A DNA stretch of 39,324 nucleotides from positions 1-39,324 of the IMG/VR virus record IMGVR_UViG_3300040801_002623; one strand, written 5' to 3'. The DNA comes from a virus. A model generated the notes under the pieces. That model was not told where the DNA came from, made no database searches, and saw only the letters and a program-made list of their open reading frames with translations. Below are positions 4,957 to 29,900 of the stretch, one piece after another. The translations under genes and the position numbers were made by a program. Numbering within the stretch: position 1 is the first letter of the stretch; the number at the start of each line of letters is the position of its first letter.

Positions 4957-6924
4957 TTATTCCGGTTCCTGCGGGGGCGCTGGCTGCGCTGCTGGGTTTT
5001 CTATCCCGGCCAATTGCTGCATACGACTCAAGTCAGTAGCCAACGATTTGGTGTTGGTCCTCATCATTTGAGAAAATATTGCTCCAACCTCAGCCAAATT
5101 ATCCAACACAAAGGACAAAGCTATATCGTTATCTATAACTTCCAAGCCACTTGCTACTGGGTCGGGGTCTCCCAAACCCGACAAAGGTGTGTCACTGTAG
5201 TCCGCATATCCGCGTCGGTCGGCCATGTTGTCCCAATCAGGGACCAACGAAGTATCATATGAAGCCCAGTCGATATACTGGTAATATTCATCATCGTAGC
5301 CATACTCTTCTCCTAGGGACCCTGCTTCTAATAAATCCAGCACCACACCAACACTTGTTCCGATAACCCAAGAATCATTAATAATGTCTCCCTTGGAATA
5401 AACCTCAAAAGACCACGGTCGTATGTCATACCCAACATCTGCGTATAATCTTAGTCTATCAATTATTTTTTGCTCAGCTATGCGATTGTGCTCTTTGAAC
5501 GACATTTTGTTTGCTACAAACCACTCAACCGCACTTTCTAACGTCTCAATTATGTTTTGTGATTCAAGGGAAGGGCTATTTTGTAGTAGTGGTGCAATGG
5601 GCGTTGGGGGATCTACTGACAAAATCGAGTATATATCGCGTATTGTAGTGGGGTGTGCATGACTTAATAACTCCTCTAGATTTTCGTTAACAAAATCAAC
5701 AGCGTCGATGAAGCCTTCCGTATCGGTCTCTTCTTCTGCGGCACGAACCTCATCTAACAATTCTAGTAACCCCATGACGGGGGTGTCGTCATAGTCTAAT
5801 GCCAAGTCCCTCCAATCGTCCCACACTTTTAAAATAACGATTGTATTTCTGGGGTTTGATGTGTCCCACTTTTCGATATCAAAATAGCTATAATCGACGT
5901 TCAATGAGTCCATGAGGTCAGTTATGGCGCTTATTGCTTTGTCGTATTCGCCACTGTCTAGCATGGTATTTATTGCTGTTATCGGACCCTCAAGATCTGG
6001 CTTTTCTTCTATCAAGGCGTCTCGTATGCCCTCATCCAAATCCATAATACTAAAATTATTTTCGGGTAAGTAGCCGCCGCCCTTGATGCCCCGGACAATG
6101 GGGTTTCTCAACAAGGCAACAATGTATAGGTGGTATTTCGGGTGTGGTTTTTCATTACCTCGTCCTTTCATTTCGCCTAACCAATTATTATCATCTAAAA
6201 TGAATGTTAATGCCGGTGCATAGTATTTTTTATCTCCAACTTGTATTTCTTTTCGTAAACTCAATATACTATCGCTCGTCCACTGCCTAGGAGAATTACC
6301 ACAGTGGCCCATGGCGCTTGCTTCTAAACTACACGACGCAGTATTCAAATTATACCATGCCCACCCATCACCAAAGTCTATCAACGTTTCAATTTCGCTT
6401 GTGTATACTTCGTGATCAATGAGCCTATTTTGATTATCGTTCCATTCTTTTTCTAAGTCGTTTAGGTCGTTTACTAACCTTTGTCTGGATTGCCATTTGA
6501 ATTCATAATTTTGAATTTCCGGTATTTCCAATGACATGAAATGTTCCAGCACCTGCTTGAAATCCCCGGTTCGAATAGAATCTAACGTATGGTTCAGATG
6601 TTCCAAATCAACGGAAGATTTGTGACATAACATGTTCTTTTTCTTATCTAGATAGACATCCAAGCCTTCGGGGTAATTCTTGGAATTTACAATGTTATCT
6701 AACATACTCAATTGAACTAGACGCATATACCATATCGCTCTGTCTTCGCGTTTGAGGACAGTTTTAACCCACTTTATTTCTCGTGCAATATGTTCTTTTG
6801 CTTTTGGGTCTATTGCGACTATACGATCAAACATTTGTCGCAAGCGATTTGCGGAAACATCTTCTGATAGTTGATCTATGCCAGATAATTGCAATAATCG
6901 TCGTATATATTCCTGATCTCCCAT
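4957..6924 (-). CDS. Large protein with a PcfJ-like block
   Basis: 655 residues from ATG 6924. The in-frame ATG at 6969 is rejected because 6924 overlaps the previous stop as TAATG and has a strong GGGGAGAGGA site. Around residues 190-275 lies a conserved block: a Cys, then MGHCGN, SLRKEI, a TFIL strand, GEMKGRGNEKP and KYHLY. This resembles PcfJ-like proteins of plasmids and phages, whose biochemical role is unsettled. The flanks are acidic and helical, with Asp/Tyr-rich stretches near the C-terminus. An N-terminal YIRRLLQLSGI and a C-terminal LSRMQQLAGI look like two copies of one helix. First large gene after the RMF-like gene in a leftward operon starting at 7793. Confidence 0.7.
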   Translation of the reverse strand: MGDQEYIRRLLQLSGIDQLSEDVSANRLRQMFDRIVAIDPKAKEHIAREIKWVKTVLKREDRAIWYMRLVQLSMLDNIVNSKNYPEGLDVYLDKKKNMLCHKSSVDLEHLNHTLDSIRTGDFKQVLEHFMSLEIPEIQNYEFKWQSRQRLVNDLNDLEKEWNDNQNRLIDHEVYTSEIETLIDFGDGWAWYNLNTASCSLEASAMGHCGNSPRQWTSDSILSLRKEIQVGDKKYYAPALTFILDDNNWLGEMKGRGNEKPHPKYHLYIVALLRNPIVRGIKGGGYLPENNFSIMDLDEGIRDALIEEKPDLEGPITAINTMLDSGEYDKAISAITDLMDSLNVDYSYFDIEKWDTSNPRNTIVILKVWDDWRDLALDYDDTPVMGLLELLDEVRAAEEETDTEGFIDAVDFVNENLEELLSHAHPTTIRDIYSILSVDPPTPIAPLLQNSPSLESQNIIETLESAVEWFVANKMSFKEHNRIAEQKIIDRLRLYADVGYDIRPWSFEVYSKGDIINDSWVIGTSVGVVLDLLEAGSLGEEYGYDDEYYQYIDWASYDTSLVPDWDNMADRRGYADYSDTPLSGLGDPDPVASGLEVIDNDIALSFVLDNLAEVGAIFSQMMRTNTKSLATDLSRMQQLAGIENPAAQPAPPQEPE

Positions 6925-7157
6925 TACTGGTCCTCTCCCCTCCGCGAAGCGTCCCACCCCCGTTTCCATTCAGTTATTTTGGCTTCCAATTGACGACGTT
7001 GTCGGTGTGTCATGTTAGCACCGGGAGAATTAGGGTGGTGTTTTGCCGAACTTTTGGTCTGTATATATCGAACAAACGCATGGTCTCTCATAGGAATTCT
7101 GGGCTTCCCCTCCATATGGGCCATTTTACCTAATCTATACGCTTCCATAAATATCAT
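6924..7157 (-). CDS. Ribosome-modulation-factor-like small protein
   Basis: 77 residues from ATG 7157, which overlaps the previous stop as ATGA and has GGAG 8 nt upstream; the in-frame ATG at 7172 lacks such a site. The pattern AYRLGKMAHMEGKPRIP followed later by ITEWKRGWDAS resembles ribosome modulation factor (G-x-x-A-x-x-G-x-x-R-x-x-P, then W-x-x-G-W), with a basic linker between the halves that is longer than in E. coli RMF. Known RMF binds 70S ribosomes and promotes dimer formation in slow growth. A phage homologue might act on host ribosomes; the similarity is by eye only. Coupled to genes on both sides. Confidence 0.6.
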   Translation of the reverse strand: MIFMEAYRLGKMAHMEGKPRIPMRDHAFVRYIQTKSSAKHHPNSPGANMTHRQRRQLEAKITEWKRGWDASRRGEDQ

Positions 7158-7480
7158 ATTTTTTTGCTCCATGGCTGGTAAAACAGGGAATTATCGTACG
7201 TTTCGTACCGACATTCATTGACTAAAAACAACCTCATTTGAAATCTTCCCGGAGAATCATACGTTATTATCTGTATTCGGGGTATTAAGGTTAGCCTATC
7301 ATTCAAATGTGCTTCTTTTAATATATTTAACCCACCAAATGGATCTCCACAAAAGGAACATTCCGTATACAAGGTATCCCAGACTTCGTACGTTAAAAAC
7401 CTGCGTGCGGTTTCTTCATCCCTAGCAATAATTGAATAATCATTGTTTGGGTTGTAATAATCGTGTATCACTAAATCCAT
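7154..7480 (-). CDS. Degenerate cREC-like receiver paralog
   Basis: 108 residues. It aligns with the adjacent upstream protein: ARDEETARRFLT versus ARTPEDARTLLA, and PRIQIITYDSPGRFQM versus PRIQLVTANPVGRSNM. The acidic active-site positions are altered: the DDVR near the N-terminus becomes HDYY, and FDHDLG becomes SFCGDP. This looks like a tandem duplicate that has diverged and probably lost the original catalysis while keeping the fold and the P-R-I-Q strand. Starts 1 nt after the preceding gene's stop and overlaps the following gene as ATGA. Confidence 0.7.
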   Translation of the reverse strand: MDLVIHDYYNPNNDYSIIARDEETARRFLTYEVWDTLYTECSFCGDPFGGLNILKEAHLNDRLTLIPRIQIITYDSPGRFQMRLFLVNECRYETYDNSLFYQPWSKKI

Positions 7481-7481
7481 T

Positions 7482-7793
7482 TTATTTGCTGACCTTTTTA
7501 TAATAATTTATAAAATCTGTCGTATAATATCCGGCATTTTTTAATGCGTTTCCCATGTTGGATCTTCCAACTGGGTTGGCAGTAACCAGCTGTATTCTTG
7601 GCACACCGTTTAAATAACCATTTTCCAATGCCCACACCAATATATCGTAGCCACTTTCAGCAGCACCAAGGTCATGATCAAAGCAGATACATTCCCAAGC
7701 AATTGACGATGCCAATAGTGTTCGCGCATCCTCCGGAGTCCTAGCGGTAAAATCGCAATTTAAATCTCTTACGTCGTCAATTAATAGCCACAT
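7482..7793 (-). CDS. cREC (cyclic-phosphate-processing receiver-like) protein
   Basis: 103 residues. MWLLIDDVRDL gives the paired Asp of a receiver fold (D6, D7) and R9. FDHDLG (38-43) and SGYDIL (47-52) supply further acidic residues, and IQLVTANPVGRSNM (67-80) is the conserved C-terminal strand and loop. These are the hallmarks of the small cREC family common in phages, proposed from sequence studies to process cyclic-phosphate ends of nucleic acids or nucleotides; activity has to be inferred. It is the first gene of a leftward operon (7793 to 4495), 26 nt after a GATAAATA motif, with GAAGG about 12 nt before the ATG. Confidence 0.8.
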   Translation of the reverse strand: MWLLIDDVRDLNCDFTARTPEDARTLLASSIAWECICFDHDLGAAESGYDILVWALENGYLNGVPRIQLVTANPVGRSNMGNALKNAGYYTTDFINYYKKVSK

Positions 7794-8367: not shown

Positions 8368-8645
8368 GAGCAGAGTATATTGAAAGTATAGCCAAAGAAT
8401 ACGATTTGTTGATTATGTCAGAAGAATATGATGAGGCCATTGTGGGTGTGGTAAATCGCTGCGGATCAGACCCATTTGTTATATATGACGAAGACGCAGT
8501 TGTTTCCATTAACATGAAAATGGGGATGACAGAAGAAGAAGCATGGGAGTACTATACTGTAAATCAGTCGGGTGCTTGGGTGGGCGACGGTACTCCGGGA
8601 TTCTTAACTTCGTTGAAATATTTAGAAGAGGCGGGGGTATTATGA
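8364..8645 (+). CDS. Conserved small phage hypothetical protein
   Basis: 93 residues, acidic. The pattern EAIVGVVNRCG, FVIYDEDAVV, MTEEEAWEYYTVNQSGAWVGDGTPGF is one I have seen in many phage and some bacterial genomes as a small uncharacterised protein; the GAWVG-G-TP end is its signature. No enzyme motif is apparent. It overlaps the genes on both sides by ATGA, so its translation is coupled within the operon. Confidence 0.8.
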   Translation: MRAEYIESIAKEYDLLIMSEEYDEAIVGVVNRCGSDPFVIYDEDAVVSINMKMGMTEEEAWEYYTVNQSGAWVGDGTPGFLTSLKYLEEAGVL

Positions 8646-9193
8646 AACACCTGATGGTCGATATAGAATCGATGGGGAATTACAACGATGGAGCAATAGC
8701 TTCTATTGCAGCAAAATTCTTTGATTTAGATGATACCGATTCTGGTAAAGAGTTTTCAATAAACATAAGCCTAGACAGCGCATTGAGTTATGGCTTAACC
8801 GTCAACGAAAGCTGTTTACATTGGTGGTTCACGCAGTCTACAGAGGCACGTGAAGAAATTATGAAACCCCCACTGGTAAGCCTAGACAAAGCATTACAAA
8901 ATTTTGCTTTTTTTATCGATACAAATCGTAGAAATAAATTTAATATATGGTCTCACAGTACGTTTGATATGACTCTATTACATAACGCATATAACGCAAC
9001 TGGCATTAGTATTCCGTGGCATTATCGAAGTACTAGAGACATACGGACATTGCATTATATATGCAGGGGAATAACATTAGACACCTTTGAATTTGAAGGG
9101 GTTCCTCATGTTGCATTAGATGATGTTCGAAACCAAACAAAATATGTTGCTAATATGCTGGTAGCTTTGGAAAACTTAAAGAAAGGGGCATAA
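8642..9193 (+). CDS. DEDDh 3'-5' exonuclease (RNase T/Rv2179c-like)
   Basis: 183 residues from ATG 8642, which overlaps the previous stop as ATGA (a longer in-frame start at 8543 lies inside the neighbouring gene and is rejected). VDIES near the N-terminus gives D7 and E9, SHSTFDM gives D109, and HVALDD gives H156 and D161, the complete DEDDh set. The opening MVDIESMGN plus AIASIAAKFF is typical of the phage group of RNase T/Rv2179c-type exonucleases, which trim RNA or single-stranded DNA 3' ends. It is followed after 21 nt by the subtilase/PP-loop gene in the same operon. Confidence 0.85.
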   Translation: MKHLMVDIESMGNYNDGAIASIAAKFFDLDDTDSGKEFSINISLDSALSYGLTVNESCLHWWFTQSTEAREEIMKPPLVSLDKALQNFAFFIDTNRRNKFNIWSHSTFDMTLLHNAYNATGISIPWHYRSTRDIRTLHYICRGITLDTFEFEGVPHVALDDVRNQTKYVANMLVALENLKKGA

Positions 9194-9214: not shown

Positions 9215-10810
9215 ATGAATGATATGGAGTGGTGGCAAAGTTCTATTAGCTCGAATATAGACATAGAAGGGAGGCAAATTAAACGGCCTCCCCTGTATTG
9301 TGAGCAAACAACAGACACGATCATATACATCACCAATTACTCAGATAAACACACCGCCAATACCCTTGCACTATTATCTGGCGTTTTTCCGTCAATCACG
9401 ATAGACATAAAACACATCGATTCGGTTCAAAACGTAAATCGAATTTTAAACCATCTTAAAGACTATTCCAATGTATTTGTATTGTGCCAATGGCACACAA
9501 AACAACGCCAACCGGTCATAGAAGAGACCATTAAGAAACTAAGCATAGAAAATAATCTTGTATTTTTGTTTTCTAGTGGTAATAACATTGATTCTCCTAT
9601 ACGCCACAGCCCACTTACAAGCCCCTATGTATACAAAATAGGATCTTATAATAGACAAGGAAAACCTTCGACTTTTTGTAAGAACAGTTTGTGCGACTAC
9701 TATATGCCCGGCACTTCTATAAACGTAAACGGGAACCACGTCAAAGGCACGAGCTACGCGGTTGTTATCGCACTAATTGCTTTGTTGCTGTTGAAACACA
9801 ACACAAGGACCGAGCGGCTCAAGACATTGATGGATAAAGTATTACCAGAATATACAATGTTGTTCGACGGAAACAAAAAACGATTTATAACCAACAAAGT
9901 TTATCGTCCGGTCGAAGATGAAATAAGCGAAATAAGAATAAGTGAAATAGGGAAGTTAAAAAAAGACAACAGCGGCGGTCTCAATGTATATATTGATTAT
10001 CGCCCCTCAATAAAAAAACATAGCGACACTTTAATCGAGGCAGTAGGTACAGTACTAAAGAGGCATGAAAAAAATGGCTTAACTATTCCTATGAGTGGGG
10101 GGGCAGACAGCGAAGCAGTTGCGTATGCTTGCGTCAAATTTGACATAGATTTTACACCAACGATAATGCGGTATATCTATGATGGCGAAATACAAAACAC
10201 GGATGATTTTCATCATGCAGAAATATTTTGTGCCAAACACGAAAAGACGCCCCGTTATATTGATTTAGATTGTAATTATTTTTTTGATGACGAACTATAT
10301 TTGAAATATGTAACCGAGTATTATACGACCAGTCCCCAATTAGCCTGTCACGTTTGGGGTCTGTCGCACATGAAAGGATTTGTAGTATTCCCCGGAGATA
10401 TTCCCGTGGTGGCTTCGGATAAACTTTGTATGCCTCCTACACAATATTATTGTTATGATTACTATTTGCATAAACATGAGTTATCTGGGATAACCCATCT
10501 TTTTACCCACAACGAAGACATATTAATTAACGGAATGCGCCTATATCAAAAGGTAGAACATTTAAAAGATAAATACACTAAGAAAAGAATGTTTTATCAG
10601 TTGGGCGGTTTTGATATATCTACTGATATCGTTGAAAAAAAGACTGGGTTTGAAGGAATACGTAACGCAATTAGCGAAAAGTATCAAGAAAGATTGAGAA
10701 TATTTAATCAATTTTATAGATTTTCCAATTCCAGATACATACCTTTGTCGCATGTTGAACCCCCCAGCGTATATGTAGATAAAAAATACAAGGATTATAT
10801 GAATGAATAG
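9215..10810 (+). CDS. Subtilase-fold / PP-loop ATPase fusion
   Basis: 531 residues. Residues 30-195 follow the subtilisin (S8) pattern: an IIYIT strand, a helix starting DKHTANTLALLSG (possible catalytic H46), a VFLFSSGNN strand (oxyanion Asn, N123), KIGSYNRQG, DYYMPGTSI (like the APG loop) and GTSYA (nucleophile S180). The usual catalytic Asp is not evident: the first strand ends in TN and the Asp-His spacer is collapsed. Residues 285-530 are a PP-loop ATPase with SGGADS (294-299) and a GDIPV loop near 394, as in asparagine-synthetase or QueC-type adenylating enzymes. No clear ribosome-binding site is near ATG 9215. Such a fusion could couple peptide cleavage or recognition to ATP-dependent adenylation; the substrate is unknown. 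Confidence 0.7.
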   Translation: MNDMEWWQSSISSNIDIEGRQIKRPPLYCEQTTDTIIYITNYSDKHTANTLALLSGVFPSITIDIKHIDSVQNVNRILNHLKDYSNVFVLCQWHTKQRQPVIEETIKKLSIENNLVFLFSSGNNIDSPIRHSPLTSPYVYKIGSYNRQGKPSTFCKNSLCDYYMPGTSINVNGNHVKGTSYAVVIALIALLLLKHNTRTERLKTLMDKVLPEYTMLFDGNKKRFITNKVYRPVEDEISEIRISEIGKLKKDNSGGLNVYIDYRPSIKKHSDTLIEAVGTVLKRHEKNGLTIPMSGGADSEAVAYACVKFDIDFTPTIMRYIYDGEIQNTDDFHHAEIFCAKHEKTPRYIDLDCNYFFDDELYLKYVTEYYTTSPQLACHVWGLSHMKGFVVFPGDIPVVASDKLCMPPTQYYCYDYYLHKHELSGITHLFTHNEDILINGMRLYQKVEHLKDKYTKKRMFYQLGGFDISTDIVEKKTGFEGIRNAISEKYQERLRIFNQFYRFSNSRYIPLSHVEPPSVYVDKKYKDYMNE

Positions 10811-11381
10811 TTATTATGATGGATTAATTTTCAATGACAAGGGCGATATTACGCTCAGTACGTCGGTGTCTACTCTGCCCCAGCTTATTAGCCAAGGGGG
10901 AAGCTGGCCATTAACTTGCACGTGGGGATTTACTTTAAAGACATTGCCGGTTGGCGGGGGGTATCCGTGGCAGTTTAAGTTGACCGGTCAGAACCCATCA
11001 AGCCGAAGCGGAACATGGGTTGATCCGGGACTGACTGTCGGGGACGAAGACTTCACCGACAGATACAACATCAGGCTCACTGATAGCAGCTCTGGTGGGG
11101 GGTCTTTGGATATATATAATTGCCGTAATACCATAGGGAAGCGACCGACCGCAGTGTATGTACCGGGAACAACCGTACAAATAGGTTCTGGCGGTGTTGA
11201 TATTTCTTGGACCATCCAAGCAACCACCTCTGTTTCTTCTTCGGGAAGGTATCTGGGAGACGGGCTAACTGTTTTTGTCGCCCAAACACTCAACATATAC
11301 GATAGTTGGGATCCCGGTAATACTGGTTCTATCAGTTGGGGATTTGCTGTAACGAATAGTACCAACTTTGAATTGGAATAA
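10803..11381 (+). CDS. Gly/Ser-rich beta protein downstream of the PP-loop fusion
   Basis: 192 residues, unrecognised. Rich in Gly, Ser, Thr and Trp with alternating hydrophobic residues (TWGFTLKTLP, GGVDISWTIQAT), suggesting a beta-sandwich or fibre-like protein. No signal peptide or membrane segment. Starts 8 nt inside the preceding gene with AAGGA at proper distance, so it is made together with the subtilase/PP-loop protein and may be its partner or substrate, or simply a virion-type protein. Last gene of the rightward operon; it ends 4 nt from the convergent glycosyltransferase gene, and no terminator hairpin is visible in between. Confidence 0.7.
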   Translation: MNSYYDGLIFNDKGDITLSTSVSTLPQLISQGGSWPLTCTWGFTLKTLPVGGGYPWQFKLTGQNPSSRSGTWVDPGLTVGDEDFTDRYNIRLTDSSSGGGSLDIYNCRNTIGKRPTAVYVPGTTVQIGSGGVDISWTIQATTSVSSSGRYLGDGLTVFVAQTLNIYDSWDPGNTGSISWGFAVTNSTNFELE

Positions 11382-11385
11382 ATTT

Positions 11386-12327
11386 TTATTTATTTAGGTT
11401 ACGCAACGCATTAAGCTCTTCCTCGGTCATGTATGATCCTGTCCGAGGAAGACCCACATATGCTTTCTTGAAAAATATGCTAGAATTTTTATCTAAGTCC
11501 GCAACAGGCAGCGCCAGCTGATGACGTAATATTTCTCCGTAGTTAACTATACCATCCCAAAGGATATCCGTGGTGGGGTACTTATTGAGAAAGTTCGAAT
11601 CATACCAAAATTTATTAAGCCACGTAAAATCACGTACATTTATATAATCCCAGTCTGTTAGTGCCGTCATTTGACATCCCATTCTAGCTCCTAGCATTGA
11701 CCATAGTCCGTATTCAACGTCAGCCCCCACTGAACACCAGACTAACAGGCGATGATAATTCCCCCACCAAATAGTGTTCTCAAATTCCGAGGGGTCTACT
11801 TTTTGCCCCCGGTCAACGCTCATTTTGACGCCTTCGCGAAAACCAGCCCTGAATGCTTGGCGGGGAGACCCATTGGGATAGGTTTTGCAAAATATATTAT
11901 TCATCTGAACATAGGTATCCTCCCAACAAAAATCGATTTGATTGAGGTCATCTTCCGCGTTTTCGTGGGTTTTCATGTTCATGACATAGTCAACCGGCCA
12001 ACATTTTAGCCCACCATTGCCATACTGAAGACCGTTTATTTGATTTATAGCCGACCAGCTAACGACTTTGTCTTTGAATTTCGGGTGATCGAAATCTATT
12101 TCTTGATCAAAAAAAGCATCATCTACTATGTTATCTGCGTCGACGCTAATAAATCGATCCGTTGACGATTCTCGTGCGGCTGCTTTGTGAGCCGAATCCG
12201 ACCCTTCAACACCGTGAACTCGTTTGGCCCATGGCACCTTGGTCAAAAGATCTGCCCAATTTTTGTCGGCATTGTCTTCATCGTAAGAAATAAAAATTAC
12301 ATCAAACTTACTCAAAGGCGTTTTCAT
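11386..12327 (-). CDS. Glycosyltransferase-like protein
   Basis: 313 residues. The N-terminus FDVIFISYDEDNADKNW, then RVHGVEG and a helix, then RFISVDADN, is the layout of a GT-A nucleotide-sugar-binding fold with a DxD metal site (D63, D65). The rest (WPVDYVM, WEDTYVQMN) is consistent with the phage versions of family 2-type transferases. It probably adds sugar to phage DNA, virion proteins or host surface glycans; the target cannot be read from the sequence. Last gene of a leftward operon with two other glycosyltransferase-like genes; coupled upstream by an ATGA overlap and a GAGGAGA site. Confidence 0.75.
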   Translation of the reverse strand: MKTPLSKFDVIFISYDEDNADKNWADLLTKVPWAKRVHGVEGSDSAHKAAARESSTDRFISVDADNIVDDAFFDQEIDFDHPKFKDKVVSWSAINQINGLQYGNGGLKCWPVDYVMNMKTHENAEDDLNQIDFCWEDTYVQMNNIFCKTYPNGSPRQAFRAGFREGVKMSVDRGQKVDPSEFENTIWWGNYHRLLVWCSVGADVEYGLWSMLGARMGCQMTALTDWDYINVRDFTWLNKFWYDSNFLNKYPTTDILWDGIVNYGEILRHQLALPVADLDKNSSIFFKKAYVGLPRTGSYMTEEELNALRNLNK

Positions 12328-15437: not shown

Positions 15438-16352
15438 TTATCCTCCCGCTGACAATTCCGTTACAGTAGTAAATGTAGGGGACGTTATCGTAAAAACTCC
15501 GGTAGATCTTTTTTCATCAATATAGGAAGTTATTGTTCCATCTGGATTCCCTCCACTACCAGACGTATCAAAGGTTACTAAAAAGCTGACAACGTCTTTA
15601 GTAGCATCAACAAATTTGGCTTCTACCGTATAACTGTCGTCCGGGTAGCCAGTCGGTGATTTAGTCAATATGGTTTGATATGTGGTCGTTAGATCATAAA
15701 AGCCCGTAGTTGAACCCACTCCCTCCGTCGAAGAAGTTGACGTATGGTCCATCCACACCGTACCTAGACCAGACAGCGTGTTTGTAATGTTTGTGTTGGT
15801 GTCAATCGCTGAACCTCCGGTCCTGCTAGCAGAAAGCCTAATTTGGCCACCTGTGTTAAAAAAGTATCTAGCGTCATCGTATGATCCAAAATCTACTGTA
15901 AATTCATGAACAATAGGAATACTCCACGATGTTGTTCTTTGAGATTGCAATTTTGTGCCGTTGGTCGTTATCGTAGCATTAGAAAACGCTATGGTAAGTC
16001 GATTAGACACGATGTTGTTGATGATGGCCGTAGTTCCCGTAAGTCCATCGCTGAACGCGTCAATGATGTCTCCTGTCGCAACGGAAGTCGGCACATCACC
16101 AATGGCTGTTCCTTGGTGTTGAGCACAATCGGCTATTCGACTAAACATTACGTTCCATTGGGTGGCAGTGATTGTCTCGCCTGCCGCAACTGAGTTGGGT
16201 GGCGCGGTGAACTGACCATATCCTTTGTTTGCATCTGTTTCAACAGCAGAACCGGCATTTTCGTCTCCATAAATCGAATTGACTAACTCCAACATGGTGT
16301 TATAATCCGGGTCGCTGTTGGCGGTTATAATTTGACCATCAGCGTAAACCAT
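15438..16352 (-). CDS. Virion/fibre-type structural protein
   Basis: 304 residues. Thr/Ser/Gly-rich, beta-type composition throughout, with an N-terminal helical part (YNTMLELVNSIYG, then ITATQWNVMFSRIADCAQHQG) that looks like an assembly or neck region. The C-terminal part contains long stretches of alternating polar and hydrophobic residues typical of fibres or appendage shafts. I know similar proteins as 'virion structural protein' in marine T4-like phages but cannot name a T4 counterpart. It starts within the previous stop (TAATG) with a TAGGAG site. Last gene before the terminator at 15372-15414. Confidence 0.75.
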   Translation of the reverse strand: MVYADGQIITANSDPDYNTMLELVNSIYGDENAGSAVETDANKGYGQFTAPPNSVAAGETITATQWNVMFSRIADCAQHQGTAIGDVPTSVATGDIIDAFSDGLTGTTAIINNIVSNRLTIAFSNATITTNGTKLQSQRTTSWSIPIVHEFTVDFGSYDDARYFFNTGGQIRLSASRTGGSAIDTNTNITNTLSGLGTVWMDHTSTSSTEGVGSTTGFYDLTTTYQTILTKSPTGYPDDSYTVEAKFVDATKDVVSFLVTFDTSGSGGNPDGTITSYIDEKRSTGVFTITSPTFTTVTELSAGG

Positions 16353-17170
16353 TATTTAACTCCTACAACTGCTAATACTTTTCCATCTTTGCTGTCTTCT
16401 AATGCTCGTCCAAATACCGCAAAGGGAGACACCGCGTTGAGATCTGCAACTGCTTTGGCCTTTCCCGGAACCGAAGAAGAAACCAACCTCTCTCCTCGCT
16501 TGACATCTCCTTCGACACCAACATAAATCCGGCCAACCATACCAATTTTGGGGTGGGTTTCGTCGGGACCGGCTTCTGCATTTAATAGAGTTCCCGGCAT
16601 TTCGCTGACAACACCGAATACATCGGGGTCAGCTTCGTCGGCTGTTATAGTAACTTCGTTTTCTCCGCCCAGTTTCACTAACGTTCCGGGGAGATAATGG
16701 TCGTCTGCATGATATCTTTCCGCCAAGTCAGCATAGCGAGCTTGGGTCGCAATACCGTTTAAATTACCGTGGAACGTGTTGGCATAAACGTTGCAGAACT
16801 TAAGTGAGCTAGACCCAATGTCCGAGTATGGGGGGTTAGTGCCGCAGTCTTCCGCCGGAAGCAGGTGTCCGCCAATAACAAAATCTCCGTCAGCGGCACC
16901 ACTCAGCATAGATTCCCAAGCGGTTCCGTTGTAAACTTTCATAACAGTGTTGCCAGTATCATACCACTGTTGTCCAACAACGGGGTCGCTTGGCTCGGTT
17001 GAGTTAGCAAAATGTTCCATTAAATGAACAAAATTGGTTGCTATCTGTTCGCCATACCCCTGTGTGTTTTTGCCAACTAAACCAATGCTTAGTGCCGGGG
17101 TGGAATTAATTGAGCCGTCTTCAACTGTGATATCAGTCACGCCGTCGGATCGAGTAATTGTATATGTCAT
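16352..17170 (-). CDS. Tail-fibre/appendage-type structural protein
   Basis: 272 residues. The N-terminal part has a short pattern known from phage fibre proteins: YGEQIATNFVHLMEHF, then PVVGQQWYDT and KVYNGTAWESM (a 'G-x-x-W-Y-D-T ... YNG-x-x-W' motif for attachment). The C-terminal part (LAERYHADDHYLPGTLVKLG through RIYVGVEGDVKRGERLV) resembles the tip or assembly domain of phage appendages. No clear autocleavage residues can be assigned. Preceded by a pair of AATAAATA motifs and an AGGAAA site 12 nt before the ATG. Followed by the fibre-type gene 15438-16352. Confidence 0.75.
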   Translation of the reverse strand: MTYTITRSDGVTDITVEDGSINSTPALSIGLVGKNTQGYGEQIATNFVHLMEHFANSTEPSDPVVGQQWYDTGNTVMKVYNGTAWESMLSGAADGDFVIGGHLLPAEDCGTNPPYSDIGSSSLKFCNVYANTFHGNLNGIATQARYADLAERYHADDHYLPGTLVKLGGENEVTITADEADPDVFGVVSEMPGTLLNAEAGPDETHPKIGMVGRIYVGVEGDVKRGERLVSSSVPGKAKAVADLNAVSPFAVFGRALEDSKDGKVLAVVGVK

Positions 17171-17965: not shown

Positions 17966-20900
17966 TTAGCATTTACTCAGGAATCTAGTTTGATAATCAG
18001 TTAAATCATTCGTAGAATGAAGGTTCTTATTATACCCTATATTAAATGAATTAGAGCTTTTGGCGTCATACACTATGTCTCCGGCGGGATGCGCTGCTGG
18101 TGTAGACGTTCCATCCACCCCTCTGACTAAATTTTGCAACAGCAGTGTAGCTCCGGAATCATCGTAATCATGGTATGCTATTAGTTCACCATTGATCCAT
18201 ACAAATCCCGGAGATGACAATGTTGCTTCTTTAAATCCAGTAGATCCGATGTTATCTAATTCTATTTCGTAATCGTCGCTGTTGAGGTCGATAACCAACG
18301 TACCCGATTCATTCGAACATAGTCGATATCCAACATCATGACCAAGCGGGTTTAGATGATATTTAAACATGAATGGGTCGGGTAAATCACCAGTAGTTAA
18401 ATCATAATCAACAGTAATTACAGCATCAGCATCAATTAATTCGTTGACTTTAACTCCAATATCAGTGTCCCAAAGCGGAGCATTGCATCCACAACACGGA
18501 TCCCAACCCCAATCGTTAGCAGTGACTTCTTTAACAGTTATGTTATCAATTTCTCCCACAAAGTCATCCGATGCACGTAGTACAATATCTGTGCTGGCCG
18601 AGTCTAGCGTTACGATAGCGGTTAAGGTTCCGGTATCAGACAGTGTCCCTGCCGTTTCGTCTCCCACGAGCATCGTAATGGTGCCCGTGGTATGGCTCGT
18701 GACTTCCATGCTACATGAATATGATGTATATTGTGTCAGTGCACCAACCTGAGATAAATCTGCAATCGCAGATTGAGTTCCGTCGGACACTGCCACCCCA
18801 CCCGCTATAGACCAATTGGTGTCTTTTGTCCAGTCACTATCCGCATCGAACGTTCCATTAGTCACCAATTCGCTTCCCGTAATGGCAGTATCATCGTCCC
18901 AGCTGTGGTTTACTATTTCCAAGTTGCTAGTCGAAACCAAAACCTCGTCGTTGAACACTTCAATTGTCGCAGTGTCGATGTTTGCATTTGGTAACCAATA
19001 TATTTGCCCTGCGGAAGTTTCTGTTGCAACACAACGATACAATTCTCTCGTAATGGTTATTACCAGATCTTCATTAGCGTGTAATGGAACAAATTCTTCG
19101 GGAACATTGTCTAGCGCATATGGTTCTAAGAAAGATCCGCCATCAAACGGCAGTATATCATATACTTGTGTTTCAGAAAGCGCCGACGGAATGTCTTCAT
19201 CTAAGAAAACTAAAGCATTAATGCTACTGTCATACGAGAAATTATAATATTGTTTGTCATCGACAAAAACGTATGGACCGGCATCTATTTCGTTCCATGT
19301 CGGAGTAAAGTCAAGATACACAACGTTACCAGCTACCATTTTGACCTGTATATAGGTTACGTCTCCGATAAAATCAACATCCGCTCTTAAGTCAAAGTCA
19401 GTCTCGCTATCCGAAATAATTGTCTCGGTATATGTGCCATTTGCATTAATTGCAGTTCCCAACTTGCCACCAATTACCGGGGTTAATTCACCAGAAATAT
19501 AATTTTCGACAGTGAATATTACTTCGTACGAGTTTCCCTCCCTTGGAGTAATGGTTTGACTTAGATCGCTAATGTCCGTTTGTGAGCCATCACATGACGC
19601 CGCGTTACTCGCGATAGACCACCCATTTCCGGCTGTCCAATTGGATGCTGATATGAAAGTTGGGTCAGTTATTAGATTTAGACTTGGCAAAGTCATGTCC
19701 GGATCAATGAGATTGAATTGTTCTTCTATAGCCAACGTGTAGTCTGAAGCGCTATAATATGTAATGGGCATATCCCCGTCCCACGGATGATCATATGTTC
19801 CGTTGGTATATTGATCCCAGTCTCCAGCATCCCAAGGGTAAGTTGGAGATAATAATGAATATGCATTCCTAGTGTAGTAATTGCCAGAACAATCTGTATC
19901 AAAGATGTTTAATTCGGCAGATGTGCCAGACCCCGTACCCAAATAATACAGGGACACTGGGTTAGTTGGGTTGACCGTGTAATTTCCCCCGCTGATAACA
20001 CTGAATGTGTTTATGCCCCCCAAGGCATCAACCTCCGTCACCTCAATAGACATTGGTGTTCCTATGCCTCCAGCAACGTATAAAATGTCGCCCAATTCGT
20101 ATGACCGACCTTTCGTTACAACGGCTCCTACTTTACATGCGACTCTATTATATGTTAGTAATATTCTTTTGTTTGGAAATTCAGACGCATATCCCATGAC
20201 ATCTTCAACACCAGCGGATCTGCTAATGCTGTAGTCTCTAATTTTGGTTCGATATGGTTTAACAGATTCAATATAGTCAATAATGTTTTCTGTTTGATCA
20301 AGGACCAAATATGGTTCTTGTGTCAACTCAATCCCGCTCTGTTTCATGGTGAGGTAGGTTGACTTGAATACCCAATCGTTGTTTTTCTGCTCAGTTAGCG
20401 CATAATTTAACATGGCAAAAAAGAATTTATTCTTGTATATTTTGTAATCGCCTATGAAAATATTGTCTAAAATAAATTCAATATTTTCTCTTAGTTCAAA
20501 AACTCTGTCAATTCTTGCAATTGCTGACGGATCGTATAACACCTCTTGAAATTCTATAGTGCTAAATTCTCTAGCAATGACATTGTATTCTTGGTCTTCC
20601 AACGAATATACATAATATGCAATGTCAGTGTCGCTCTCCTTCACCTTTATAATTTCATTAGGCAACAATTGCTTGAGATTTTCCAACGCAACAACACTAG
20701 ATACCTGCCTTGAGGGGGTAACCGTTTCAGTTGACCATCCGTCTGCGTACCACGTAGCCCATTTCCATACACCTAGCGTAGAATCTTCTGACCCAAACGT
20801 TTCCTCCCATACAGGGAATTCTTGTTTCACCGATATGTTGCTTAATAAGTCGTTCATGACAAAAACAAAAACTTCCCTAGCATATAACATATTAGTAAAC

Positions 20901-23900
20901 CAAGTTTGCCGTGGTCTATATGAGGATCCATACTTTTCTGCTTCATTTAGGGATGGGTCTGGAACTAATAAAAAGCCTCTGTTATTTCCCGTGGCGCAAA
21001 AGCCTGATACGTCTGCCGTCCAATCAATGACTTTTGTTTGGCCCATGAGACTGTCGAGAAGTTTGTTCCAGTGGGTGTCCAAAATATTTGCGTCTTCGTT
21101 GTTTTCTCCAACCAAGTGCCATTCAGCGTGGCTGATAGCGTCTTCTGACAACTCGTTGTGGTTTACTTGGAATACAATGTCCCCTTTAGAAAGAAAATCA
21201 CTAGTATTACTTAGTAGAAATGCATTTCTATCTTCGACTTCTTCATATACACGATATGTGATATACAGTTTCGTTAATTTAACTAATTTATTCGCAATAA
21301 AATATATATTTTGTCCGTCTACTGTATAATCTATGTTTTCTATAAATATGTCTCCATCTCGATAAGAAGTCGTTGCCCACGATGGTACTGTAACTGCCCT
21401 GATCTGGAGATCTTCGAAATATTCGTCGGTAATAGTAAACCCATTAATATCTATATCAGTTATTATGTCATCAGAACCACTAATAAACAAAGACTTAGTT
21501 GAATCATCAGAAGCATAATATTGGGCATGCTTGCGATTGAACGCGTTGGTGTTAGAATGATAGTTTACTGGACTGAACCATGAATATCCGTATTTTTCTG
21601 GGTATTCGATAAGATTCGCCACACTGGTAGAGGACAGGGTGCGGCGACGAATACCTGTCGGAATATCTACCAAATTCTTGACCCAGTAGTAATACACAAT
21701 GGTATCAGACCTCAGGGTAGTGTCATACTCAACTAGTTCTACATATTCGGTAGTATTCTTGGGCGTCCCATCGCCATCATACTGATCTGGGGTTACATAG
21801 TTTCTGGTCCACTCGTATACGTCGACTGACGAGCCGGGGAACAACCTGCCCCACAGATCACGTCTTTCTCTGTTGGTTCCTTGTTCGTAATTTATATAAC
21901 GTAACGTAGAAACATCCCACCACAGTTGTCCTACTTGTTTGGCAGTAAATAGTTCGTTTTTATTAATGTGGGTTGGTATATCCGAGGTTGTATATCTAGC
22001 TGGATCAACTTCGGAAATGTAATCTATGTTCTGTAGTGCTGGTCCGGGAGCTAATCCTTTAAACGGATCATACACTGGTAACATTTTTAGTGTTTCCTTG
22101 GTTTCCTCTGAATATAAAAATCCATTTTTATATTTGTGGGTATCGACCATTGGTTTTTGAACCCTATAATAAATTTTTTCAACTTCGTTTTCAATAGTCG
22201 ACACAGAATAAGTATCCCACGTGTAGTTAACCGTGTTGAATTCCTCTATACTATACCGAACAGTTAGCTCACAACCAGTACCACCAGATGGCTCCACGGT
22301 GGTCGCAACCGCGTTCGTAGGCTTATTGCTATATGTTCCGGCAGACAATAACGAAACTTCATAAACGCCACCAGACTCATCTGTTACTTGAACTGTAAAT
22401 GTGGAAGCCAGTGATCCAGTTTCTAAAACTCCACCAACAACTGTCAAAATATCACCCTCGCTGTACCCTGTTCCGGTAGCCGAAACAGTGGCACTAATCG
22501 CAGTATATTGTGTTTCTGTTTCCGTTATAGTTCCGTCTGTTACTTCTTGAACTTCCCATAAACCATTATCATTGTCATCTATCCAAGACAAATCCCCCAC
22601 ATATAGCGCTCTCTCATTTTGATGTAGATCTTCGGCAACTGCATCTCGATGATCTGGGGAATTATAACGACAGCTATACATTCTCCACAGCCTACCGGTG
22701 TACAATGGGTCAGTTTCTAGTGACTCGATAACCCCCTGATCAAAAGAGAATTCTTCGTAGTCATTTGTGTACAGTTCATACTTGGATCCAAGCCCAGATG
22801 AATCATTATCAACCTTAACTATCCTAAAGGCCGCATATTCATTACGAGTATATAATGGATCTTTTTGTTCTACAATTCTTATATTTAATATGAAAATATC
22901 CGACAACACCCTTCTGTCGTCTGGATCGGGCGTGTATAGTGTGGTGGAATACATGTAGGTTTTGTTGTCTTCTTGTCGAAATGTGAAGTTGATTCCATAT
23001 TCAGCACCAACGTCTATAGTTCGGTATATATTCCATGTCGATGATAACCCAAAGTCTCTATTAGTTGTTAAGACTCTGGTTGGACCTACATTACACTTGG
23101 CTACAAAAATAGTAGGGTGATCCACCACATCCCATGTAACTTCGTCAGTATCTTTGTTATATGAAGCTATTTCATTTATTATTGGACATTGAGATGATCC
23201 AGTTTCCCACAAAGTAATGAAATCATTAATGTCAAACAACAGGTTATCAACATCATTTATGCTAGCCCATCCCGAATTGGGCAATGAAAACTGGGTTTCG
23301 GTTGTGGTTGGAACCAAATCTCCTAAACCACAGTACCGGGGTTTTCTTATCCATCTGTCTGGGTCATCAACATCAATATAAATGATATCATCGTAATCCA
23401 CGTCCGTTGTTATATCATACTGTACAACTGTTATGATTTTGTTTAGGCTATCATGATCCCATGGGTAATAATCCCAACCATAAGCATCCCACGATGAGTT
23501 GTCTAAATAAACCACCGGTTCGGTTATGTAACCGGCACCTTGTTCAATGATATCGATGCTGGTCAAGTACCCGGCAGCATCCAAATTAGCGGAAGCAATT
23601 GCTCCCCCTCCGTTACCATGATCATATGGTCCGCGATATATCTGAACGTCAGGAACGCCATTAGTATAGGGTTCCTCGGCATTCAGTATTAGAATTTGGC
23701 TTATATGTCCCGTTCGAGTATCGGGTGTATCAAGAACAATCAGCTGGGGTTCGGTTTTGATTTGAGAATTCTTTAAGCTTACATCAAATCGCTTTCTATC
23801 ACAAACGGAGCCGAAATCATAAAGTTTTAAACTCCATTCTTCATACGTACTTATATCTTGGTCCGATGTTACATATATGGATCTAAGAAGTTTTTTAATA

Positions 23901-26900
23901 CTTTCGTTTGTACCCTTCTCTCGTATCGCGCCTTGATAGAATTGAAACTGAACATCGTCATCCAGCTGAAGATTAGCTAAATAACTTTTTTCATCATATC
24001 CGATCAAATGTCTGGCCGCATCTTCGACCATTTTTATATCGAGTAAGGATTCGGTATCATGATAGCGTCTAATAGATTCGGTGGTATTTTCTATGTTAGG
24101 CGTTATGATGCCCCCGTTGTTTATTAAATAACCTTCCGCTTCATACTTACCAAACCAGTCTTTTGTTACAATGGCACTTATTCTTAATCGTGGCTGTCGT
24201 ATACCAAGCATTGGGTCATAGATAACATCGTCGAAGGTTGTTATGTTGTCAACAGTTACCGCATGTTCCGTTTCTGAAGTTGAAACCCTCATGTAATATA
24301 TTCTAACATCTTCGCCCAACGGAACAACTTCTATGTTCTTGTCATCCCTAAGCACTGCAGTCAGTCTTGGGTCAATAACTACCCCCTGTTCATCGAGGAG
24401 GCTATATACCCCATTGTTTGTGCGCTCCACTGCCATTGGATAACCACGTTCGACCTCCAATTTCGGGCCGTCGGCTAATGGACTCAGTGTAATCGCATTG
24501 TCTGGTGCAAATTCAGTAGCAACCCATATTAAATATTGCTTGCCAGCCTCCAAGAAATCATTAATAACATTTGTATACTCGCTGAGCCTTTCAAATTTCC
24601 AACCACGAGTTTCCAAATACTTACCATATCCTATCAATAAATCAAATACGTCTTGAGGGGTATCAAATACATCTCCATAATCTACTGATAACAGCGTATC
24701 TAAATTTCTATCTGGATAATAGCTCACTTCTACCCCACCATTGGTTGGTAACTGAGAAACCTTAGTCCAATCATCGGTGTTAAATCTATCGGCATAAAAA
24801 TCTACTTTAGCCCGATAATACACTGTGTTGTATCGGACATATTCCCCTGCTCGGTAAGATCTTTCTGGCAAGAACTCGCGGAATGGGGCGTCTTTTCCTC
24901 CCACATTGATTTCAAATATTCTACTATTTGGTTGTGGAGGATAATATTTAAAGGTTGGATCAATAACGTCATACCCATATACTTGGTATTTTCCGTTATC
25001 TAATACTCGAACGACAACACCACTATATGCGTATTCTTCTATACTAGGGCCTGTAACTAATTCAAGAGAAGTACTTTCTGTAGGGAGTAATAACGTATTA
25101 GTAGACGAGTCCGGTGATATGGTTTCAGAAAACAATTTAAAAACATTCTCTACGGTGAATGCGCCCATTCTATATCCGAGTTTGCTATTTAGGAATCGTA
25201 TTTTGTCTCCAAAATTAGTTTTAATGTTCTTGTTTAAAAAGTACAAACGATCCGATATCCACTGTTGATAGCCACTACGCAATATAACTTCACCATCAAC
25301 TGTTTCACCGTGAACGAGCAAATCTTCTGGTTTACTTCTTTTATATGTACTCGTGCTCACAATTTGCGTCGAATCAATAGCAGTGTTGATGGTTTCTTTG
25401 GTATCCCAATATAATTCACCAAATTGTGCTGGTTTTGTCAAATATAATAATTCCATTACAGAGAATGGATAATATGACGAAGTGGCCCACGCATATTCAA
25501 TTGGGGCGCAGTCGCCAAATTTCCACGTACCCTCTCGATCCGAATCAAGAGGTGGATATTGGGTTATTCCTATCTCAGTAGGAGTTCTTAAGTTTCCAGA
25601 ACTATCTACTGGCAAGTAATTTGCAACCAAGTCTAGTCTTACATATCTGGAGTCAGTACCCGCTCTGTCTCCTTGGGCTATCGTTCCAGTTTCAATGTCG
25701 TTCCACATTCCGGTATTCCCACTGCTATAATCAGTTCCATACTCAGATTCCCACCAGTCGGGCTGTATACTGAATCCTAACATTTCCCACGGAGTCGAGT
25801 GAGGGGTATAGGTGTCGTAATAGTATTTGTATATACCTCTCCAATTGCCCGGTACGTTAGATTCACGTAATCCATTTTCTCTATAATTATATGTCCATGG
25901 ATCACTCTCGTTATACGTATCATTTATCACCCAATTAGCTTTCATGGTTGTGGTCCATTTGATAAATGATGATTTTAATATGTCGTTTATTTCTTCTTTA
26001 GTATAATTAGTATTTCTAAATTTACCCGAGCATACGTCTGTAAATTGTAAAATAGGTTCATAATCATCCTTGTACTGGGCACAGACGCTATTGTATATTC
26101 TTTTTTCTAATTCTAGCAACAGAGTATCGCGAATATCATCGTATATTGGAAGCCGCGAACCGTCGTGTCCTATAATAATTCCAGTTCCACCGTTGTCGGG
26201 GGTGGGAAGAGTTGTATCTGAAATTATTTCTGGTCGAAACAAAGGGTACATTCCCATTTTGGTTGGGGTGGACGGTATATGCGAAGGAATAGTATCAGTA
26301 TACTGCCTTACATATAATCTGGATATACGGATTCTATCTTTAGTGGTAATATCAAAAGAAGCATTAATTCCCGTACCATACAGTCCATATGTTGGATTTG
26401 AAGGAATGCCCGTGCTTTCGTATTGGCCAGAATATAAAATTTCAAAATCAGCAATTGCCCCATCTGTTTCTATTGACGTTACCCGCAATTCCGCAGGTAT
26501 TCCTGTCCCGCCATCTAAAGTAATAATATCACCAATTGTATAACCAGTTCCGGCAGAATTAATAGATATTGTATCTAGCTCTTTATATTCTCCGGTTATC
26601 TGGAACCCTAGATCTTGTGGAAAACGCAACTGTATAGGAACATCCATTGATTCTATGTTGTAATCAACTCCTTCCAATAACATACGTTGCCCGTCCAAAA
26701 CGCTTCGTTCATCGTCGACGGCAAATATATATAAAACATTTTTAATATTGTTTAAATCTTGGTAATTATCTAAAGTAACAACAAAATCAGAACCGTCGAC
26801 CATGGTTTTGTCTGGGTCGGCTAGAACAGCAGAATCAATGATTTCTTCATCAAATACGGTACCAATCGCGATCATATTACTGTAATTAAATTGGCCATTC

Positions 26901-29900
26901 ATTTCGGACGAAAGATTAATTCTGTTGATTATTTCGTTGATCCATGCATCTATTCGAACATTATTATCGCTGTGTGTAATGTTAGAAAATTCATTTTTTT
27001 CGTACATGGTCAGTGCAGTTCTGATGAATTTATTCTTGAATCTTGAGTATTCCCTACCGGCCATTCGAATAGATTCAACGAGATCCACATCATCGTGTGA
27101 GGTTACAAACATTCCCTTTAATAGTGGAGACCTGTTTTGTAAAATATATTCGCCAACGGTGTTATCTTTTGGAGAATCTCGGTAAAGGGTTTTGTCCCCC
27201 AAAGTACTGGTATCTATGTTGTCTTGATTTCTTATGATAGAAACAAAATGTTTAGCGTAGTCGTTGTAACTATGAACTGATGGTTCTTCATTTGTAGGAT
27301 TGTTTTCTAATGATTGGGGGATTTCATAATAACCTCTTGCGGTATCCGATAGATGCTCGCTAGAAATATACGATACTGATAATATCTCTTCATCGACCAA
27401 CGTATCCCGAACGATTAGCGCTTTTTTGTCTGTAGTAAAATTGCTTATTGTTCCAGACACCGACCCAACAATGACTATGTCATCGGGATAGTCTGGTAAT
27501 TTAGCCAAAATAAATATATTATTATCTCCAGCAACAATAAACGTTTCCTCGCACTGATTTGTAGAATAAGTGAAAAATTCTAAAATTTGATTTTCTTCCA
27601 GTGAATGTAAAACCGTAACTGTGTTATTTAAAACAGTATAGTCTGTATTTTTAACCAAATAGTCCCCGTCTAGTTTTGCAATAACATCTTCTTGGTATGG
27701 AAGAACACTCAATTTATATGTTGTCTGTACAGTATCTTCTACAATGTATCTATCTATGACACGTTGCTTGGAATTGTCATTGTAAGACCAATTGTTAGAA
27801 TAGTCAGTCGTAAATGTCCCATCGTACTTTATATAGTGTAATGTGCCCGATCCGGCTGCAGTGATATTAACCGCTGATAGCAACACAGCATCTTCCATGG
27901 ATTCTGCCAGTTTAATAGTATTTTCATCAATTACAATAACATAATAAATATTATCCGGAGTAAGTCCCGTCGGAGCAGTTTGCGATACAGTAGTGGACAT
28001 TTTATATACAATTTTATCACCAGTACCCAAACCATGTCCGGTAACAGCAATCGTGTCGTTGACTTCGTCTACATCCGCAGATGCATCGAAATATATACTT
28101 CCAACACGACAGTTATGTGTCTTGTAAAAATAAAACCCTTCTATCTCTTCGTATGAATCGCCCGATACATATTCAAATCTATCTACGACTAGGTTATTAT
28201 CAAATAATACATCACCAGCCAATCCAAGACCGCTATATGACAATACAATGCCTAAATCGGGGTCTGGCGCTTCTGCTGAATCGCTCTCGGTGTAAGAGAA
28301 CAATTCTGAACCAAAAAAATTGCTATTAGGATAATTTATTTCGTCATCTAAAGCAATCCCTTCGTGGTCATATAATGTATATAATGGAAGAGCATTATTT
28401 TTTGTTTTTTGTACTTGAGCCTCTAACCATTCGATTCCATCGTAATAAAACGTTACACCATAGTTTATACTACCAGATAAACACAAAACAATATCTCCTT
28501 CCGAAGATTTAGTACTATTAGGCACGATGTCTATATACCCGCTATCGTCTATAATACTGAATATTGTGTTGGATATATCTCCGTTAGGCAAATCGTCTTC
28601 TTCAATAGTATGTATGCCGTCTGTGTACCCGGTGCCTCCGTTGCTTATACTTATATTGGTGATTTTTTGTTTTTCAGATACGATAGTGACATCGAAAGTT
28701 ACGATGGCATCTCCGTTCCCGCCTCCAGCGGTTTCCAACAAAGTCGCAGCTTTCCCAGTAGCTTCTAAATAACAATCTCCCTGTTCTGCAGATACATTGG
28801 ATAATATTTCAACAACAGTGCCGCCAACGACCTTGATCTGTATGGTTGGTTTGGTCGTTTGATTTGGAAAAATAACAGACATTCCGTTCGTGTAAGGGAC
28901 GTAATCAATATAACTCACCGTTCCCCATTCTTTTCCAATGTATGCATGGTATGGGTATCCATGCTCTGGATACGCATTTGCGGCATTAACATTTTGCACA
29001 TATCGATTTCCGGATTTATATAATTCGATTCCCTTGACAAATTCGATGATGGGGTGTGTAGCTCTTGTGGCCGCTTCCGTTATTGCTGAAAAATCCGAAT
29101 CCACAATTTCTGCCGCTGATTCTAATACATCGATGTGATACCAGCTGTTAGTACGAGACCAACCATTATAATCACATGCTCCTCGTTCAATGGTTATATA
29201 ATCCGTGTCTGGGTTTCCTAGTTGTGCATCCCAAGGCATCGTGTCCCAACACCCGACGTTGGCTGCACAGTAGGATGGATCTGTGACAAAATCCCATGGT
29301 ATATATTCGAATTGCTCGAATGGAAGATTATAATCTTGTTCTCCCACAAGCATTATGCTTCTTCCAACTCCCTCTACCCGATAGGTGTTTCCTTGATATA
29401 TACCAGAATCTGGGTCTCCAAAGGATATTGGTAGGCCACTTGTGAACGCTAGTGGTTCAGGTACGTCAGTAACCGAAATTGTTGTCCCGTTAGTGTACCC
29501 CGAGCCGGGTGCCACGACCGCTATACTGGATGCATCAATTTGGTTATTAACCACATCATAACTTAGTATTGCTTCGCCATCGCCGCCATCTGCGGTTGTC
29601 GTCAGGGCAATAGTGTAGTCAGTACCATCAACATAGGCACCTCCTCCCCAAACAACAATGGGGTTAGTAACTTCTCCACCCACCACGTCCACCGTTATGG
29701 TTGCGGTTGGGGCGTAGGTTTCGTGACCAATAATATTTTCGTTAATTTCCTGCTCAGACAATCCATACAAGGTTATAACTGGCAACAAATCTATATTTCC
29801 TAACCAGTAGTAATATTGATAATTTATAAATTTATCTATATCTATTGGGGGCGAAAAAGAATAGAAATCAGATTCAAACAATCTATCGTGATTGTTAATA

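Follow-up and report, generated by a model that had tools for sequence, protein, structure and literature searches.

A phage protein that joins a degenerate subtilase region to a PP-loop ATPase

We describe a phage protein in which a degenerate region derived from the S8 (subtilase) family and a PP-loop ATPase domain occupy one continuous reading frame. Its gene lies in the window, the whole 39,324-base stretch of an IMG/VR virus record analysed here, which is a fragment of a jumbo myophage whose baseplate wedge protein is about 37-47% identical to those of PA5oct-, Atu_ph07- and GAP32-type phages. The fusion is real. A sequencing join had been raised as the alternative, and this is excluded because the same domain order occurs in a second jumbo-phage lineage, the contigs L140, L141 and L142. 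The novelty lies in the fusion itself, the ATPase half being a member of a large, mostly stand-alone phage family, and the protein is a new combination of known domain families whose mechanism is unproven. A search of 5.4 million open papers turned up no description of such a fusion, in line with the preliminary description, whose author knew of no enzyme with this order.

The fusion frame and its two halves

The gene is a single uninterrupted frame of 531 codons with an ATG start (Table 1). All motifs read from it earlier are present, namely H46 in DKHTAN, SSGNN from residue 120, PGTS from 165, GTSYA from 178 and SGGADS from 294, so that an S8-derived region and a PP-loop ATPase do stand in one protein.

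Table 1 Features of the fusion gene and its neighbours in the window
Feature	Position	Strand	Basis
DEDDh exonuclease, Rv2179c-like	8642..9193	+	PF16473 2.8e-44; phrog_255
S8-like/PP-loop fusion protein, 531 aa	9215..10810	+	Same architecture in L140/L141/L142
Degenerate short subtilase (S8) region, aa ~33-195	9311..9799	+	PDB matches nearly all subtilases
H46, likely subtilase His (DKHTAN)	9350..9352	+	Aligned with DKHGHRA of L140
SSGN oxyanion-Asn motif, aa 120-123	9572..9583	+	Alignment to proteinase K
GTSYA nucleophile-Ser motif, aa 178-182, S180	9746..9760	+	Motif
PP-loop ATPase domain, aa ~269-500	10019..10714	+	Family alignment; Foldseek
SGGADS PP-loop, aa 294-299 (family SGGxDSE)	10094..10111	+	23-row alignment
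Small beta-rich protein, 192 aa, candidate substrate	10803..11381	+	ATG 8 bp inside the end of the fusion
GLIFNDKGD motif, N-terminal, aa 7-15	10821..10847	+	Also in three L115 proteins and L203
Unnamed protein, ISYDE...RFISVDADN type	11386..12327	-	Homologs in PP-loop loci

The S8 assignment was examined by family, structure-database and motif comparisons. Pfam Peptidase_S8 (PF00082) is the top family for the window protein (E 0.097), at a score of 12.4 bits that lies below the gathering cut-off of 21.8. A phmmer search of residues 1-240 against the PDB yielded 17 matches, 16 of them to subtilases and the best to the N-terminal cyanobactin protease (E 0.003), and a shuffled copy of the same residues, used as a control, yielded zero. 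A profile that included the L140 and L142 orthologs reached PDB subtilases at 1e-8, a value driven largely by these two orthologs. The window region shares the SGN oxyanion and GTS nucleophile motifs of S8 subtilases such as the PatA/PatG cyanobactin protease, mycosin and proteinase K, and it retains H46, N123 and S180; H46, singled out earlier for a check of conservation, has its counterpart in L140 (Table 1). Unlike these enzymes it is short and fused to an ATPase and, exactly as first read, it has lost the catalytic Asp together with the normal Asp-His spacing, leaving the S8 set of Asp, His, Ser and oxyanion Asn incomplete. Weak when taken alone, the S8 matches are backed by the L140/L142 ortholog, since it has the same domain order and an S8 domain above the cut-off. 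For the compact S8 fold first proposed, the sequence matches point to kinship with subtilases, in a region that is short, degenerate and poorly modelled.

Structural checks, which had been recommended for each half, gave unequal results. In the AlphaFold model the PP-loop half is confident over residues 271-390 (pLDDT 83-97) and mixed beyond, whereas the S8 part mostly falls at 40-60, with a predicted order of strands and helices compatible with S8; the linker between them (residues 196-268) is long and of low confidence. Foldseek matches obtained with the window model were limited to the PP-loop half. When the S8 regions of the window protein and of L140 were aligned directly, the result was no better than with shuffled sequence, and a phage-virion S8 profile, which recognised neither of the two, was uninformative as a test.

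The C-terminal domain carries an SGGxDS loop on a PP-loop fold, as HUP ATPases do, and is a member of a broad phage family, so far unnamed, of 270-330-aa proteins, some of whose BFVD neighbours are called asparagine synthase. In contrast to the window protein, members of this family usually stand alone. The S, G, G, D, S and E of the loop are invariant across a 23-row alignment, most rows of which had been preselected by a similar motif, and in the family alignment a single Cys is invariant, QueC proteins being marked by a zinc site of four C-terminal Cys. By itself the window half is weak (Pfam NAD_synthase, E 0.1). MnmA and NAD synthetase, both matched by a family profile, score best by sequence, with LarE and WbuX as further sequence matches, whereas the best PDB folds by Foldseek, with modest TM-scores, are beta-lactam synthetase, carbapenam synthetase, AsnB, LarE and GMP synthetase; sequence favours MnmA/NAD synthetase and fold favours AsnB/LarE. 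What the matched families have in common is ATP-dependent adenylation. The window protein resembles the amide-forming enzymes AsnB and beta-lactam synthetase in its loop and its best fold matches, yet it has an S8 region where these have an N-terminal Ntn glutaminase domain, none being recognised here, and it stays below the family cut-offs. It gave no asparagine-synthase match, its relatives scoring under the cut-off, and no match to QueC (PF06508). Membership in QueC was rejected for the family, as all members tested fall short of the Pfam cut-off, the closest (L222) reaching 21.0 of 22 bits.

Relatives in phages and bacteria

Queries with the full-length protein or its halves returned no homologs among phages, in IMG/VR or in 50 baseplate-related records; relatives came to light only through searches based on a motif or an alignment. 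A degenerate DNA pattern for MSGGxDSExhA matched 56 IMG/VR stretches, most of which encode PP-loop proteins of 270-330 aa. The nearest pattern-found relative of the window PP-loop domain is the stand-alone protein of L115 (E 8e-48); L143 and L145 likewise encode the PP-loop protein without an S8 half. On three phage contigs (L105, L106 and L127) two or three SGGxDSE PP-loop genes stand in tandem.

An alignment search retrieved L140, L141 and L142 (310, 17 and 306 kb), near-identical contigs of one lineage that encode a 557-aa protein with the same domain order. Among the relatives found, the S8 fusion occurs in the window and in these three contigs only. The S8 domains of L140 and L142 score 23.6 and 25.5 bits, above the Pfam cut-off. 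The L140 domain is matched along its extent by a fungal alkaline protease (1e-7) and also resembles mycosin (2e-8) and the PatA/PatG cyanobactin maturation protease (E 6e-5). By motif and alignment D36, H64, N155 and S219 are in place in L140, indicative of an apparently complete catalytic set as in S8 subtilases. The L140 AlphaFold model was set aside as evidence, its S8 part being too poor for use. The PP-loop parts of the window and L140 share 32% identity over 243 residues, and between the fusions as a whole PP-loop identity is about 29-32%.

A genome scan with the close subfamily gave no hits, and three loci in bacterial MAGs emerged from GTDB contigs when the profile of the broad family was used. 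In one of them, L222 from a Pseudobdellovibrio MAG, the PP-loop protein is 25% identical to that of the window, and about 1.2 kb away lies a subtilase-like gene fused to a Hint-type domain (E 2.7e-6). The PDB matches of its product are mostly subtilases and, by our reading of the alignments, the aligned Asp, His, Asn and Ser are all replaced. An Asp/Asn beta-hydroxylase-like gene adjoins the L222 PP-loop gene; the pseudo-subtilase/Hint gene (L222 positions 5807-7549) stands in a run with it, convergent with the PP-loop gene. In a tree of PP-loop domains, the window, L115, L140/L142, L143/L145 and L222 form one clade with support of 94/97, of which L222 is the basal member. The fusions do not resolve as one clade, and the sequences neither show nor exclude a single fusion event. 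S8 proteins or domains, fusions included, occur in 15 of the 37 PP-loop phage records, many of these phages encoding a separate subtilase; we claim no enrichment.

The overlapping beta protein and the surrounding genes

The fusion had been proposed to be made together with a DEDDh exonuclease and a beta protein. Both neighbours are confirmed, the exonuclease gene 22 nt upstream on the same strand and the beta-protein gene overlapping by 8 bp, but the exonuclease is of an ordinary phage type, related proteins occurring in about 500 phage records, and was not seen adjoining the L140 or L115 relatives. Beside the L115 PP-loop gene stand three similar small proteins, one beginning 4 bp after it, and they share with the window protein the N-terminal motif G-[VL]-[VI]-[FY]-N-x-K-G-D. 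Chance is an unlikely explanation for this placement beside related PP-loop genes, because the motif, picked out post hoc, matches as a DNA pattern just 20 stretches in all IMG/VR, most of the others internally and in unrelated proteins. Outside the motif, the likeness of the beta proteins is not clearly above shuffle noise by full-length profile. L203 encodes a motif protein on a 30-kb contig devoid of the PP-loop gene, and searches of the L140, L142, L145 and L117 records yielded no such protein; a single pattern match in the L140 record was discarded owing to an in-frame stop.

Downstream, the 11386..12327 product has no family match and, judged by eye, is perhaps glycosyltransferase-like. 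One homolog is encoded near the L115 PP-loop gene (E 7e-25), and further ones in the PP-loop loci L093 and L167-L169. Tail genes lie close to the fusion gene. Elsewhere in the window, the protein at 16352-17170 has a Peptidase_G2-like match (intramolecular chaperone autocleavage) just under the Pfam cut-off and also matches tail fibre families, and an open frame of 4081 aa (17966-30211) adjoins the baseplate genes.

The loci of relatives hold further genes. A Rieske-type-looking gene, recognised by eye, is present in 16 stand-alone PP-loop loci, including L083, L085, L100 and L103, and overlaps the PP-loop gene in at least one. A glycosyl hydrolase family 6 gene (cellulase-type, Pfam 9e-43; L172 positions 5457-6293) lies near the PP-loop gene of a 328-kb phage. 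The L140 phage carries, some 4-7 kb upstream of its fusion gene, a QueE-like radical SAM gene (L173 positions 234-1970; Pfam below cut-off, QueE by eye) and a TGT/DpdA-like gene (2082-2984; by eye, no Pfam match), and this pair possibly serves 7-deazaguanine DNA modification.

Proposed function and its alternatives

We tentatively favour a two-part protein-modifying enzyme, in which an S8-derived binding module and an ATP-using PP-loop domain act on the beta protein; a small-molecule or nucleobase role comes close behind. The sequences establish the fusion and its recurrence, the eroded S8 catalytic residues, the intact PP-loop, the overlap of the two genes and the motif held in common; substrate, chemistry and purpose are what we infer. 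The subtilase-derived part would mainly provide a cleft holding the substrate, perhaps still able to cut in L140. The PP-loop part would spend ATP on adenylating a carboxyl or acyl group and would form a bond with a small partner protein, at its N-terminus or close to it. In the window this partner is most likely the beta protein, via GLIFNDKGD. The purpose may be decoration of the virion or tail, since tail genes lie nearby.

The early suggestion of a peptide-binding module feeding an adenylating domain is plausible. The S8 fold was probably retained for substrate binding as catalysis eroded, because S8 is apparently intact in L140, part-broken in the window and dead, as a separate gene, in L222, with the PP-loop intact each time. 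The protein-modifying enzyme is further supported by the resemblance of both the L140 and the window S8 regions to cyanobactin proteases, and by the tight spacing of beta-protein and PP-loop genes in the window and in L115. A precedent exists in Cap9, a PP-loop enzyme of the QueC family that conjugates a base to the N-terminal glycine of a partner protein, with QatC proposed to act likewise (PMC11996544, PMC13279940); the window protein is also a PP-loop enzyme, but its candidate partner motif begins at residue 7 and is not an MGxS at the very end. The substrate would not be constant across the family, because no motif protein is found in the L140/L142 records. Counting against this reading are the motif protein of L203, the S8-free proteins of L115, L143 and L145, the near-noise likeness of the beta proteins outside the motif, the split PP-loop subfamily signal and the low S8 pLDDT.

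Lasso cyclases offer a further analogy for PP-loop enzymes acting on a protein N-terminus. Of the lasso-type RiPP set of precursor, leader protease, AsnB-like cyclase and RRE, the window has protease-like and AsnB-like parts, and its Gly...Asp motif spacing is suggestive only. It is a long shot that the fusion is a maturation enzyme for peptides or proteins, in which the S8-derived domain serves recognition (or cleavage) and the coupled beta protein is processed just ahead of the GLIFNDKGD Gly, the AsnB-like ligase joining this Gly to the Asp eight residues on (a lasso-like ring) or to another group.

It is possible, if somewhat doubtful, that the PP-loop domain instead works on small molecules, sugars or nucleobases within a modification pathway of the phage, as an enzyme of amidotransferase, thiolase or deazaguanine type, with the S8 remnant as a scaffold or dimerisation module. 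The sequence matches to MnmA, NAD synthetase, LarE and WbuX point this way, as do methyltransferase genes near the L145 and L172 PP-loop genes, a GNAT gene in L172 and a similar one in L224, genes of Rieske, QueD/QueE and GTP-cyclohydrolase type (named by eye) near relatives, and the QueE-like gene about 4 kb upstream in the L140 phage; methyltransferase and/or GNAT genes in loci of the clade also weigh on the protein-modifying side as fitting small-molecule chemistry too. However, none of these genes was recognised beside the window gene, the family members tested miss the QueC cut-off, and an S8 partner in two settings plus a coupled beta protein would be left unexplained. A chance or relic fusion whose S8 part is decaying with no functional link is unlikely: the loss of the Asp and spacer and the rarity of the fusion (the window and one near-identical group) would fit, but the order is repeated where PP-loop identity is about 29-32%, an S8-like protein neighbours the basal member L222, and the frame is intact over all its codons.

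Quite unlikely, too, is self-processing, whereby the S8 domain cuts a polyprotein to free the PP-loop enzyme and persists as a fold remnant where cleavage is lost. The apparently complete L140 catalytic set, the long linker, the prevalence of stand-alone PP-loop proteins and the Hint domain of L222 are consistent with it; the missing Asp of the window copy speaks against it, as does L222, where the S8-like protein is a separate gene and there is nothing to free. The anti-host activity that had also been suggested is not supported, and an effector that binds or cuts a host protein with its S8 part and modifies it with its PP-loop part is highly improbable. It is a lineage-specific phage gene adjoining small unknown genes, and QueC-like PP-loop proteins are known in defence systems (PMC11996544, PMC13279940), but the window protein has no PADLOC match, tail genes stand beside its gene, and relatives are also found on bacterial contigs.

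With this fusion, a large unnamed phage PP-loop family gains a protein-binding partner and a candidate enzyme-substrate pair. A fused enzyme that has kept a protease fold for binding would also be of interest to studies of enzyme evolution. If the beta protein is indeed modified, phages would own an ATP-driven protein tailoring of their own, alongside the defence-linked QueC-type systems.
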